Shown in pieces: positions 4,586 through 17,476 of a stretch of DNA of 22,348 nucleotides. This DNA is from a virus. A program made the translations under genes and the position numbers. The notes beneath the pieces were generated by a model, which had not been told where the DNA came from, searched no databases, and was given only the letters and a program-made list of their open reading frames with translations. Numbering within the stretch: the first letter of the stretch is position 1; each line of letters opens with the position of its first letter. The stretch covers positions 1 to 22,348 of IMG/VR virus record IMGVR_UViG_3300009481_000123. One strand, written 5' to 3'.

Positions 4586-6025
4586 CTATGGGGCAGTAGT
4601 GCTGATTCTTACAATACTTGTTGCATCGATTACGCCAGATTTTGTTCTCCATGTAGTGTTAACACGTACTTGGTTATCCTCTGGGATTTCGTGCATCTTA
4701 ACGGTTACATCACGTTTGATACCAATACCGTATGAGTGTTTTGGAATACACATGATGGCGTTGTAAGCATTGTTAGTTTGTGCAGTCTCATTTTCTACAG
4801 CGTTTGTGACAACGAGTTGTACACCCATTAATTCTTCTAGTTGTGCTTTTAGCCAGATGTCTGGTACACTTCTAGTTGCTAATGAGGTAACGTTTGTAGA
4901 TGTAATGAGTTCTCTCCATTGTCTTGGGTGTAAGAAACATACTGGTTTTACGCCTCCTCTGAGATAACCTTGGTTCTCAAGATATTCTCGTCCGAATGCG
5001 ATACCTGTTTCATCCAATGTTACTGAAGCGATGTCTGAACTGGTTACTGTTGCACCTGTATCTCCTCTGATCCATAGACCTGGGGTCAATGTACCTTCTG
5101 CGGATACGGTTGTCAACATGTCAGTTGCGACAAAATCTTCATAACTTGCAGCACTTCCTTCTACGATTACTTGTAGTAAGTCGAATGGGGAATTTTCAAT
5201 CTCGTCAAAGTCACCAATTAAGTAAGTACCAGTGATGGTGCTTGGTGTGACTTCGATACTTGTGATTGTTTGTGTTGCTTCTGATGGAGTTGATCCTACT
5301 GTTTGTGCGCCGTTTGCCGGTATAGTTGATTTAAAGAATCTTGCTCTGTCTGCACCTGCTACAATTTCTTTGGTCTTGGCGAATTGGAATACAGGAACGA
5401 AAGAGATACCACCTGGGACAATTGCTACATCAGTGTCTAAGTCCTGTGTTGCATGTGTACCTGAAATGGAAACAGCCTCTTTAAGTTGTCTAGGAGTACC
5501 CCTATATGCTTCTTGAACACCGTACTTACTACCGTTTCCTACTTGAATACTACGCATAGTATCGTGTGGGATGGTGAATTTGTAAGTTCCGTATTGTTCT
5601 AATGCTTTTGGATATTCTTGGGCGACTTCTGCAAAGGTCTTAACTGAAACATCGGCTCCAACTTGTGCAGTTGGTCGTTTTGATTCTAGTTTAAGTTTTG
5701 CATTTTCGGCTTCAAGTTTTTTAATCTTTTCTGTTGCAATATCGGCTTTTGTATCTGCGATTTCTGGTACTTCTGGTGAAGTTGGTTTACAGGTTTCGGT
5801 TGCTGCATCCCAAGAGTGGCCAGATGGACATTCATGGTTTGTAACTTTTTGATCCTCGCCTGAGTCAGCACCGGAGTCACTAAGGTCAGATTTTTGGTCT
5901 TGTCCTGGGTCTCCTAATGCTGCTTCTTTTTTAGCATCAGTTTTTACGCATTTACCTTGTGAAGCATCGAAAGAACTGCCTTCTGGGCATTCTTTGTCGT
6001 CTGCTTCTTTACAATTACAAGTCAT
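4586..6025 (-). CDS. Major capsid protein, HK97 fold, with N-terminal cysteine repeats
   Basis: A 479-residue protein. From about residue 125 the sequence follows the HK97 capsid plan: an N-arm, a central domain with PGGISFVPVF and TYLIGDFDEIENS, the helix-rich ENSPFDLLQVIVEGSAASYEDFVATDML (described in part), a LHPRQWRELI helix, a GVQLVVTNAV strand and C-terminal strands ending in TTWRTKSGVIDATSIVRI. Before this lie two copies of a CPxGxSxDAxxxxC motif (C13-C26 and C66-C79), an acidic linker and a coiled coil (about 93-117) like a delta scaffolding domain. The gene is monocistronic, with a TATA box 26 nt upstream and an oligo-T terminator, fitting high expression. Its protease is encoded upstream. 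Cleavage of the N-terminus during maturation is plausible but not shown. Confidence 0.88.
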   Translation of the reverse strand: MTCNCKEADDKECPEGSSFDASQGKCVKTDAKKEAALGDPGQDQKSDLSDSGADSGEDQKVTNHECPSGHSWDAATETCKPTSPEVPEIADTKADIATEKIKKLEAENAKLKLESKRPTAQVGADVSVKTFAEVAQEYPKALEQYGTYKFTIPHDTMRSIQVGNGSKYGVQEAYRGTPRQLKEAVSISGTHATQDLDTDVAIVPGGISFVPVFQFAKTKEIVAGADRARFFKSTIPANGAQTVGSTPSEATQTITSIEVTPSTITGTYLIGDFDEIENSPFDLLQVIVEGSAASYEDFVATDMLTTVSAEGTLTPGLWIRGDTGATVTSSDIASVTLDETGIAFGREYLENQGYLRGGVKPVCFLHPRQWRELITSTNVTSLATRSVPDIWLKAQLEELMGVQLVVTNAVENETAQTNNAYNAIMCIPKHSYGIGIKRDVTVKMHEIPEDNQVRVNTTWRTKSGVIDATSIVRISTTAP

Positions 6026-6265: not shown

Positions 6266-6418
6266 TCAAACATATGCACCAATCTCTATACATTGTATTA
6301 CATTATTCTTTATAGCCCAATTTACCACATCAGACATGGTATCAGTTGATATTATATTCTCTATATACCAGTTATTTACTACGTCTATCCAGTGAGGTAC
6401 CATACATTTTAGATCCAT
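6266..6418 (-). CDS. 50-aa protein with WIDVV motif
   Basis: A 50-residue frame whose ATG overlaps the TGA of the KTSC reading frame by one base (TGATG). It is helical in appearance, with WIDVVNNWYIENI early and VVNWAIKNNVIQCIEI later. The 16-nt stretch that encodes the WIDVV region is identical to one at 22075-22090 in another small gene. No family is recognised. Translation would be coupled to ribosomes terminating after the frameshifted product, which indirectly supports the KTSC frame being translated. Confidence 0.6.
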   Translation of the reverse strand: MDLKCMVPHWIDVVNNWYIENIISTDTMSDVVNWAIKNNVIQCIEIGAYV

Positions 6419-6756
6419 CAGCAATCGTGTAACGTTTTAATCTCCCTGTTAAAGAACTCACCCTTACTATTGGCACCTTCAAAGGCATCAAATAGCCTCT
6501 CTGATACGTTGCAAAAGTCGTATGTCTTGCCGTTTAATATTACCTCCATAGATTGATTATCCTGATCATATTTTACGTTGCCCACAAATGATGAGGAATG
6601 TGTAAATGCCTTAAATCTGGCCTCCTGTAGTATCTTAATCCAGTGTTCATCTAGACTCTCTGAAAATTCAAATCCTCTGGGAACTACACCTATCTTGTCT
6701 TTCTTTTTCTTCTTAGAACCTGCTCTATCGAATGGTCCTTGGAGGTTTATTTGTTC
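6418..6756 (-). CDS. KTSC-domain extension, expressed by -1 frameshift
   Basis: A 112-codon open frame in the -1 frame relative to the capsid protease, ending at TGA 6418-6420. It encodes a Lys-rich linker, then a KTSC-like domain: HSSSFVGNVKYDQDNQSMEV, NGKTYDFCNVSERLFDAFEG and NSKGEFFNREIK match the family's S-x-Y-D...L-x-F...Y-x-x-V...F-x-x-F...S-x-G-x-x-F-N-x-x-I pattern. No ATG, GTG or TTG precedes the domain in this frame: the frame opens after a stop at 6772-6774, and the first GTG lies inside the domain. The natural reading is a fusion with the protease via the slippery site at 6756-6762, giving about 397 aa. The alternative is a base error in the A9 run of a single continuous gene. 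KTSC domains occur in phage proteins and at the C-terminus of some lysyl-tRNA synthetases; their role is not established. Confidence 0.75.
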   Translation of the reverse strand, partial: EQINLQGPFDRAGSKKKKKDKIGVVPRGFEFSESLDEHWIKILQEARFKAFTHSSSFVGNVKYDQDNQSMEVILNGKTYDFCNVSERLFDAFEGANSKGEFFNREIKTLHDC

Positions 6757-6762
6757 TTTTTT
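6717..6762 (-). promoter_or_regulatory. Putative -1 programmed frameshift site
   Basis: A9-G on the minus strand ends in the heptamer A-AAA-AAG (6762-6756) in the correct 0-frame phase, the same heptamer used by E. coli dnaX. After an 8-nt spacer there is a short stem AACCT/AGGTT (6747-6743 with 6721-6717, 21-nt loop). The stem is weak, so a stimulatory role is uncertain. Confidence 0.6.
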
Positions 6763-7610
6763 TTTACTTCGTTACAGTGGCCACAGAAATAGTTATGTTT
6801 TATATTCTCTATGATATCCCTAGTCTTGGATTCTACGCTGACAAATTCTGAATCCTTTCTTAGTAGTAATAGTTCTGATGTTAAGAACTCTATATCGTTC
6901 TGTAGTATTGCAATTGTGTCATGTAGTAATGGATCTTCGTTGTTATCCTGTATCTGTTTGAATAGTTCTAGTGCCTCATTTTTCATCTTTATCTGGCCTT
7001 CAATCTCTTCTATATGTTGAGCCATGTTATCCTGTATAATATTATCTACTGTTTGTTCTCCTCCTACTGCCTCTTTTTCCCTTGGTTTGATGGTCTTATG
7101 AATAATCTCCTCTGCTCCGTATTTCTTTACAAATTCGTGGTCTGCATCTGTATGCTCTTTACATTGATTTATAGTTTGTATAACACTCTCTTTGAGTACA
7201 TTAACACTAGTTTCTGGTACACCTGGAGTTTCCGTAAGTGCGAGACCTTCTGGTACAAGTCCAAACGGCATGTGAAAGCAGTCTGTACTCCCATTACATA
7301 TCTTTTGTACATTGGTTGGGGTTGCCTCAATGGATGTGTATAATAATTTATTTGCTGCTAATAGTGCTGCTGATGGGTCTGTTATTTCACCCTCATAAAA
7401 CACTGTTTCAGATGTTGAATCATATTGGAATGTAACCTCTCCTATTACCTTGTCTGGATTATGCTCCCAATTAAGTGGAACTGTTACACCGTTAAATCTA
7501 ACTAACTCTTCCTTTGTATAGAGGTTATTATTCCTTGAAATCCTTGGAATAAGTGCTACTCCTTGAATCTTTGCAGATTCGTCAATAGTAGCATAACTCT
7601 CTATATTCAT
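6747..7610 (-). CDS. Prohead maturation protease with scaffold-like C-terminus
   Basis: A 287-residue protein in the 0 frame. Residues 15-100 match the prohead protease pattern: GVALIPRISRNNNLYTKEEL, then PLNWEHNPDKVIGEV with candidate catalytic H50, then FYEGEITDPSAALLAANK and LYTSIEA with candidate nucleophile S93. PFGLVPEGLALTETPGVP (115-132) resembles the segment that follows in such proteases. Residues 185-270 are charged and helical, like a scaffolding domain. The C-terminus has FCGHC, half a zinc site, just before the A9 slippery run. It lies upstream of the capsid gene, the usual partner. The promoter at 7631-7648 supports the ATG at 7610. Catalytic residues are proposed by pattern, not confirmed. 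Confidence 0.78.
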   Translation of the reverse strand: MNIESYATIDESAKIQGVALIPRISRNNNLYTKEELVRFNGVTVPLNWEHNPDKVIGEVTFQYDSTSETVFYEGEITDPSAALLAANKLLYTSIEATPTNVQKICNGSTDCFHMPFGLVPEGLALTETPGVPETSVNVLKESVIQTINQCKEHTDADHEFVKKYGAEEIIHKTIKPREKEAVGGEQTVDNIIQDNMAQHIEEIEGQIKMKNEALELFKQIQDNNEDPLLHDTIAILQNDIEFLTSELLLLRKDSEFVSVESKTRDIIENIKHNYFCGHCNEVKKKNK

Positions 7611-15783: not shown

Positions 15784-16010
15784 GCCTGATCCTCTAATTC
15801 TTTTGGTAGTAATGAGTCTGATTTAATGTTATCACATTTGTTTATCTTCATAGTAATAAAGTGACTTAATTCCAATCTCTTTAATCTATTGGCCTCTGCT
15901 AATTCATTGGCTATTGATACAAGTACACTCCATTTCTCACTCTCCACTCTTAAAGGATTAGCAGAAGTACATAAAGTTTCAAATTCTGTTGTACCATCAT
16001 ATTTTCCCAT
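15780..16010 (-). CDS. 76-aa hypothetical protein after TerL
   Basis: The ATG shares a base with the TerL stop (TAATG). The central helix (WSVLVSIANELAEANRLKRL) has a mixed hydrophobic and charged face, followed by LSHFITMKINKCDNI. No family is recognised. Direct coupling to TerL suggests synthesis in proportion to the terminase and perhaps a packaging-related role, but this is only context. Confidence 0.6.
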   Translation of the reverse strand: MGKYDGTTEFETLCTSANPLRVESEKWSVLVSIANELAEANRLKRLELSHFITMKINKCDNIKSDSLLPKELEDQA

Positions 16011-17476
16011 TATTCAAATACCTCTTTCTCTAAGAACACACTCTTATTTGTAGGTTTGGGTTTATCTGATTCAACCTCTGTGCCACCTTTTAGAACGTCA
16101 TAATGTGTATAGTCAAATGATTTAAGATCCCATGCCATCATATCAAAGGCATCTACTAGGTCGTATGGTACTTCTGATTTGTCTATTCCACCCATCTTGT
16201 CAAATGTTACGGCTCTCATCTGGGATATTAACTTCTTGAATTGTGGGTGTATTCTTATCTGATGTTTACTTATCATACCTGAGGCGTTAATCGGTAGTTT
16301 CTTTTTTAGTGATACTGTAGTGTTAGATCCTTCCCTCTCTGGTACCTCTTGACCAAATGCTATGCCTACTGCTGGAATGTCTATCTCAGTTAATGATTTA
16401 ATAAATCCTGGATTTGCTGCATCTACCTTACATACTTGTTTGTGCCTATTCCATGATTCCTCCATACTGTTTATCATGGCGTTAGGTGATGCTCTTGGAT
16501 ATTCCTCAGCCTCTAAGACGTATAATATTCCATCTCTTATCTCTCCTGATACCTTACCAAATAATGATGATCCCCATGCTGGATCTGCGTATGTACCAGC
16601 ACTTCCCCCTAGATATTCAAGTGGGTACTCCTGTATACATATCTCTAGGTCCTCAATATCAAATACGTCTCCTGAACCATAACCATACTGTAGATTATAC
16701 TCTCTTTGAAACGATGGGTTGTTCTTCTTTTCATCCTCGATAATCTTCTCATCATACACTATGCCTACACCCATCTTGTAATCTAACTCAAATGTGATAT
16801 ATCCACTCTTCTCATCTCCCTCATCATCCATTCTCTCATATAACCCGCCTGGTAGATTAGGCGTGGATATCATTACTATTAACGCATCACCTTTGGCTCT
16901 GTATCTCTCTGCTACTGTTCTTGCCTCGTCTTGGTATCTACCTGGGAAAAAGTCAGCCTCATCAAGCCATACAATACGTGGGTTAAGGCCTCTTGCTGAT
17001 GCTAGGTTATTGGTAGGGAATGCCTCTATCTTGCAGCCGTTAAGTATAATGAGTGATTCTTTGGTCTTAAAATCATTCTCAGGGAATAGGTTCTTTATCC
17101 TACCTATGATTTGATTTGTTAGTTCCTGTCTTACGCCTGTAATAACGATAACTGATACATCTACCTGTCTATCCTTCCAATTGTCGTCCTTTAGACATTT
17201 CCAGGATACATATCTAGCCATGAACTCTGTAATACCTAGTCCTGTGGCTTTCTTTATTCTTACCTTACGATATACTTCTTTGGCCTTTTCTACTCCCTCG
17301 CCTGATTCTAGGGCATCATGGAGCATTTTTTCATATTCAGTGTATTCTAATTTGTTAGGCAGGGAATTCCAATATGTCTCAAAATCCATTCCCCTATACT
17401 CTGGAAAGTCTATGTTATCTGCTTCCTCTTCCTGTAGATCCTCTGCTATCTTGCATACTTTATCTTCTAGGCTCAT
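16010..17476 (-). CDS. terL: Terminase large subunit (packaging ATPase/nuclease)
   Basis: A 488-residue protein. The ATPase part has a deviant Walker A, KKATGLGIT (75-83), with the lysine at the start as in lambda-type terminases and not in a GK(S/T) pair. Walker B IVWLDEAD (168-175) ends in the catalytic Glu, and a motif III-like MISTPN (202-207) follows. The nuclease part has YADPAWG (D298), KVDAANPG (D352) and DLVDAFDMMAWD (D442, D445), the acidic residues of the RNase H-like fold. It would cut concatemeric DNA and pump it through the portal. The start overlaps the 43-aa gene stop by ATGA. Confidence 0.92.
   Translation of the reverse strand: MSLEDKVCKIAEDLQEEEADNIDFPEYRGMDFETYWNSLPNKLEYTEYEKMLHDALESGEGVEKAKEVYRKVRIKKATGLGITEFMARYVSWKCLKDDNWKDRQVDVSVIVITGVRQELTNQIIGRIKNLFPENDFKTKESLIILNGCKIEAFPTNNLASARGLNPRIVWLDEADFFPGRYQDEARTVAERYRAKGDALIVMISTPNLPGGLYERMDDEGDEKSGYITFELDYKMGVGIVYDEKIIEDEKKNNPSFQREYNLQYGYGSGDVFDIEDLEICIQEYPLEYLGGSAGTYADPAWGSSLFGKVSGEIRDGILYVLEAEEYPRASPNAMINSMEESWNRHKQVCKVDAANPGFIKSLTEIDIPAVGIAFGQEVPEREGSNTTVSLKKKLPINASGMISKHQIRIHPQFKKLISQMRAVTFDKMGGIDKSEVPYDLVDAFDMMAWDLKSFDYTHYDVLKGGTEVESDKPKPTNKSVFLEKEVFE

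Follow-up and report, generated by a model that had tools for sequence, protein, structure and literature searches.

A conserved adenine tract joins the prohead protease gene of probable archaeal head-tailed viruses to an open extension in the -1 frame

The window, i.e. the whole 22,348-base virus record that was analysed (36% GC), contains an open reading frame (ORF) for a prohead (capsid maturation) protease on the minus strand at 6747..7610. Its 287-aa product carries the protease, a C-terminal coiled coil and a CxxC zinc-knuckle, and ends in ...CGHC NEV KKK NK. The CGHC zinc-knuckle (6774..6785, minus strand) lies immediately 5' of a run of nine adenines (A9; 6757..6765, minus strand, read as T9 on the plus strand), and the gene end reads GTA AAA AAA AAG AAC AAA TAA. 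An A9-G run with a correctly phased A_AAA_AAG heptamer, described in an earlier note on this DNA, is seen in this sequence, with the heptamer at 6756..6762 on the minus strand. Behind the tract the -1 frame (6418..6756, minus strand) is open for 112 codons, from 6756 to a stop at 6418-6420, and no ATG, GTG or TTG occurs in the part of this frame that runs from the nearest preceding stop to the encoded KTSC domain (PF13619; 6436..6597, minus strand). The stop of the extension overlaps, via TGATG, the ATG of the next small ORF (50 aa; 6266..6418, minus strand), and the major capsid protein (MCP) gene was assigned to 4586..6025, also on the minus strand, by its position downstream of the protease. 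The A9-G with its heptamer, the 112-codon frame that has no start before KTSC and the TGATG overlap are as the earlier note had given them, and its two predicted products, of 287 aa and 285+112 = 397 aa, agree with the reading frames.

The 0-frame protein is assigned as a prohead protease on the basis of its PHROG family, its homology to the protease/MCP of the Nitrososphaera provirus Nvie-Pro1 and its position before the capsid gene. PHROG 7015 (head maturation protease) was matched by six of nine family members (best 3.2e-5); the window protease by itself falls short of a match. The AF2 model of the protease (pLDDT 60) yielded herpesvirus assemblin proteases among its top Foldseek matches, which were weak (E ~0.05). 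WEH and TSIEA motifs are conserved across the protease alignment, and the zinc-knuckle is kept in relatives as CxxC(G/N)E or CxxCGKLH. In L003-L005 the alignment starts at ATC (Ile) after ...AGTATGAAT, and translation of these proteases probably begins at an ATG that lies two codons before that ATC.

The host is probably an ammonia-oxidising archaeon. The large terminase of the window (16010..17476, minus strand) matched the Nvie-Pro1 TerL by tblastn with 40% identity over 83%, and it also matched loci in two amoA-bearing genomes at 41-43%. The idea that the record represents an archaeal head-tailed virus is thereby upheld as probable. Of 398 genomes from the phylum to which Nitrososphaera belongs, 33 encode distant proteases, and a search of genome contigs with the protease alignment returned no matches. 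None of 30 provirus loci examined carried A9 or KTSC in the vicinity of the protease, and wherever a locus included the protease stop, no run of A's formed a slip site that opened into a long extension.

The identity of the domain in the -1 frame is certain. Pfam KTSC matched extension residues 54-107 with 53.1 bits against a curated cut-off of 25 (E=2.6e-14), and the KTSC family alignment matched the solved KTSC proteins 4rgi and 7x8c as well as the HerA C-terminus 8wiv. The predicted 397-aa product contains the junction VKKK-EQINLQGPFDR and the KTSC peptides FKAFTHSSSFVGNVK. Comparison of the -1 frame of the window with that of the relative L007 revealed 4, 1 and 31 differences at codon positions 1, 2 and 3, respectively, a distribution that shows purifying selection at the protein level. 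Furthermore, conservation in this frame reaches the slip site itself (LSGDHSRAD-KKKK motif), and the KTSC C-terminus is conserved as ...FNReIKt.HDC before the stop. No KTSC relatives were found in the Phages collection searched.

Searches of viral contigs yielded 30 distinct protease loci, including the window, with a readable and unambiguous gene end, representing 7 lineages at a 90% cut-off of N-terminal protease identity. The run before the 0-frame stop was A9 in 27 loci and A10 in the other 3, with an open -1 frame behind the tract in every case. These 30 tracts were the sole runs of at least nine A's across 292,642 nt of sense strand. All relatives have an in-phase X_XXY_YYZ heptamer in the ORF overlap (A_AAA_AAC, AAG or AAA), most of them A_AAA_AAC instead of the A_AAA_AAG of the window, and the junction A9 was found in two codon phases. 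The 0-frame ends vary in sequence and length, and their stop always lies 1-16 nt past the run. The alignment of relatives that had been put forward as a check thus returned the slippery run together with two frames at 30/30 loci, a degree of conservation that, together with the lack of other such runs in these loci, excludes a chance origin of the junction architecture. The frame transition is judged to be real, old and selected because it is kept in 30 loci and 7 lineages and because the KTSC frame diverges with a third-position bias.

KTSC was present in the -1 frame of 26 of 28 loci, the other two of the 30 ending at a contig edge. In the remaining two (L041:6283-7652 and L047:5072-6837) an HExxH protein stands alone as cargo in the -1 frame and KTSC is a separate downstream gene with its own ATG, indicating that linkage of cargo to the protease does not depend on KTSC. 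In a further relative, L052, the protease is without the run, and A9 lies on a separate gene homologous to the coiled-coil/zinc-knuckle tail of the protease. That tract (GGT AAA AAA AAA GCA; L052:9079-10175, downstream of the protease) is in the third codon phase and is followed by a helical-membrane domain and KTSC in the -1 frame. The earlier proposal of a protease-KTSC device therefore stands as regards the linkage but not as regards its specificity for KTSC, since the -1 frame of L041 and L047 holds cargo only and the tract of L052 is on a separate gene. Neither A9 nor KTSC was found in L053, and the run of L027 contains an N and mismatches. L071-L075 were considered as further junction cases and rejected, their KTSC being standalone genes with ATG that overlap the portal end; the standalone KTSC overlaps or follows the portal gene end at L071:7001, L072:3451, L073:2522 and L075:5908. 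Some standalone KTSC genes of this set are preceded by a short RCVDDV...SAWAICKSS-type Cys motif.

The extension of the window itself consists of KTSC only. In relatives, the -1 frame encodes an assortment of cargo domains, including an HExxH (zincin-like) cargo in L008, L018, L041, L047 and L051. The HExxH motif (His-Glu-His) is invariant in these five divergent cargos, with a further Glu downstream in the four complete ones. An ART-like stretch (FFRGTS...AEVRM, at motif level only) is present in L043, another domain is inserted between the slip site and KTSC in L007 and L029, and L001, L037, L050 and L051 have in common a helical domain before KTSC that includes a single strong helix of membrane type (e.g. 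VILTTIFSVTVAGLALTIL). The enzyme-like assignments (zincin-like, ART-like) are putative and rest on motifs. Pfam matches of the cargo were below cut-off, AF2/Foldseek comparison of the zincin cargo gave no strong PDB match and mostly coiled-coil matches, and the L008 cargo matched a PHROG minor head protein/DNA pilot family (3.9e-5). Extensions have been swapped on near-identical proteases, i.e. KTSC only in L009 vs a zincin-like domain in L018, and an ART-like stretch in L043 vs a zincin-like domain in L041. The slip site thus adjoins a module that has repeatedly exchanged effector-like domains while the tract remained unchanged. The L018 extension ends in SYTHLTLPT at the contig end, which we take to be a translated Illumina adapter and hence an assembly artefact.

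A homopolymer sequencing or assembly error, behind which the true gene would be a single continuous frame, could be suspected from an error-prone A9 in a window that is a single contig, and from the ambiguous run of L027. The same -1 relation recurs, however, with A9 or A10 in 30 distinct loci from many metagenomes, none of them in frame, and the differing 0-frame ends all retain their nearby stop. As these relatives share the architecture, the error explanation was rejected and has next to no probability. Replication slippage within A9 might instead toggle the fusion within a population, nine-nucleotide homopolymers being mutable. Such genomic phase variation is improbable, as the 30 loci include no in-frame or +1 variant and the A10 loci likewise stand in the -1 relation. 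KTSC could also be made alone, via re-initiation or a non-standard start, with no fusion at all. L041, L047 and L071-L075 do have KTSC as a separate ATG gene, and internal ATGs occur in the -1 ORF of some loci. Nevertheless, the window, L004, L021, L028, L033, L036 and L038 are without any ATG, GTG or TTG before KTSC, protein-level conservation extends upstream to the slip site, and A9 would be left unexplained, which makes standalone translation very unlikely.

The two leading explanations are slippage of the host RNA polymerase and slippage of the ribosome; the predicted 287-aa and 397-aa proteins are identical under either mechanism. Canonical -1 programmed ribosomal frameshifting on A_AAA_AAG/A_AAA_AAC (or A_AAA_AAA) inside A9 would produce the same 397-aa fusion, and it is consistent with an in-phase heptamer at every junction and a direction that is always -1. 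A_AAA_AAC has been proposed for the G-T gene of the archaeal head-tailed virus HCTV-2 and A_AAA_AAR for an archaeal Mg-chelatase (PMC5009743), and a poly-A -1 shift is used by a Sulfolobus fucosidase (PMC8211752). Furthermore, viral ORFs avoid the in-phase A_AAA_AAN heptamer (29 observed, 80 expected), and A6 runs occur at 14/33 (observed/expected) in the slippery phase vs 33/33 out of phase; this avoidance of short A runs mainly in the slippery phase points to ribosomes. Set against this, at most seven A's are needed for the heptamer, yet all tracts have 9 or 10, the degenerate third base of the preceding codon included. Genes of a candidate host contain the heptamer often (461 in-phase copies in 349 kb), so that it is not an efficient signal alone. 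Neither downstream structure nor a Shine-Dalgarno (SD) sequence is conserved. The weak 5-bp stem of the earlier note finds no support, the downstream 90 nt folding no better than shuffles (z = -0.82); at 12 loci no downstream pseudoknot-free RNA fold was significant (z -1.6 to +1.1), and the search for a conserved SD at 30 loci yielded an SD-like motif in one.

Host-side counts were made in three amoA-bearing archaeal genomes, two at 33% GC, close to the 36% of the window, and the third at 42% GC. In the two 33%-GC genomes, coding A4-A7 runs were as frequent as expected and A8 was at 0.65-0.77 of expectation, while A9 fell to 7/34.5 and 9/26.7 (observed/expected) and A10 or longer to 0/23.7 and 0/20.4, in all phases. 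The in-phase A_AAA_AAN heptamer was tolerated in the same genomes (461/548 and 420/457), and in the 42%-GC genome runs of at least nine A's numbered 0 vs 25.5 expected. In viral ORFs, junctions aside, no such run was observed vs 7.2 expected from synonymous shuffles. The in-phase heptamer stood at 0.36 of expectation in viral genes vs 0.84-0.92 in candidate host genes. A sharp length threshold at nine A's is a published signature of transcriptional slippage (PMC1088944), and the host threshold could reflect or include replication slippage. Despite this strong avoidance, the amoA-bearing archaeal genomes G145 and G157 (L191-L227) still have seven and nine coding A9 runs, which could mark additional genes that depend on slippage or sites that mutate rapidly. 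RNA-polymerase slippage could serve a +1 relation too, and common descent may explain why the direction is always -1. Overall, the conservation of nine or more A's fits an RNA-polymerase-slippage signal at least as much as a ribosomal one. Polymerase slippage is given slightly better than even odds as the cause of the transition because run length is conserved, because candidate hosts avoid runs of at least nine A's independently of phase, and because heptamers are tolerated; ribosomal frameshifting is a serious contender at clearly less than even odds. Of the dnaX-type -1 frameshift described in the earlier note, the -1 linkage is upheld, the stem is unsupported, and the ribosomal mechanism is one of the two contending readings, the conserved feature being at least nine A's in any phase.

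The reading preferred here, with a rough probability of 0.52, is a programmed -1 transition at the A9 that ends the prohead-protease gene, produced by slippage of the host RNA polymerase and yielding an extended minority form. Slippage on the tract would give some mRNAs with A10 (or A7), on which normal ribosomes would read on into the -1 frame. The protease would thus be made mostly as the short form of 287 aa, with a minority of the 397-aa form ending in KTSC and, in some relatives, carrying interchangeable cargo ahead of KTSC. Since the protease goes into the prohead along with the scaffold, the extended form would be present inside the head at low copy number. Its KTSC end would anchor it to nucleic acid or to the head, the cargo could be delivered together with the DNA, and tract length would set the dose. 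Packaging and delivery are suggested by phage effector fusions and by the place of the protease in the prohead. More tentatively, and at clearly less than even odds, the fixed A9 could be a dosage-setting docking point at which, through RNA-polymerase slippage, any cargo ORF in the -1 frame would become a minority protease extension, loaded into the capsid for delivery. Retention of the tract across diverged relatives apparently serves to give a fraction of the protease its extra tail, seemingly a novel route by which minor proteins are loaded into virus heads. Such a junction readily escapes notice, as gene callers cut the protease short and omit the extension or give it a wrong start, and the junction would provide a clean test of evolutionarily used archaeal RNA polymerase slippage on A9.

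Among known systems, Nvie-Pro1 (FR725450) has a protease and terminase homologous to those of the window virus, but its protease is single-frame and fused to MCP, with neither KTSC nor A9. Transcriptional slippage in Thermus thermophilus dnaX (PMC1088944) has in common with the window a sense-strand A9, a nearby stop, two products at a set ratio and a threshold of 9. In Thermus the long product comes from the standard frame, whereas here it would come from slippage, as in Shigella mxiE; the present case also differs in belonging to an archaeal virus and in having an extension with swappable domains. The ribosomal frameshift of E. coli dnaX shares the A_AAA_AAG heptamer and the -1 direction, but here the SD and stem are not conserved, the run is A9 rather than A6-A7, and the frameshifted product is extended instead of truncated. 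The G-T genes of the haloarchaeal viruses HCTV-1/2/5 (PMC5009743) are likewise morphogenesis genes of archaeal head-tailed viruses with a -1 shift, on A_AAA_AAC in one of them; they encode a tail assembly chaperone without cargo domains and not a capsid protease. In phages, fusions of effectors to MuF, portal and the capsid peptidase are known, with packaging and injection predicted (PMC9503650, PMC5512222), and these and the polyvalent proteins resemble the present family as head proteins with C-terminal zincin, ART or other effectors. KTSC and frameshifting are both absent from the 2017 polyvalent-protein paper of Iyer (PMC5512222). The known MuF and polyvalent fusions are single-frame, whereas the join seen here depends on a change of frame and KTSC is usually its last domain. 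The open-access literature searched yielded neither a frame transition joining a capsid protease to an extension nor an archaeal programmed transcriptional slippage. Within that literature, recoding in archaeal-virus morphogenesis had been reported for tail chaperones only and effector-bearing head proteins as continuous fusions only; the ingredients are each known, and their combination is new.
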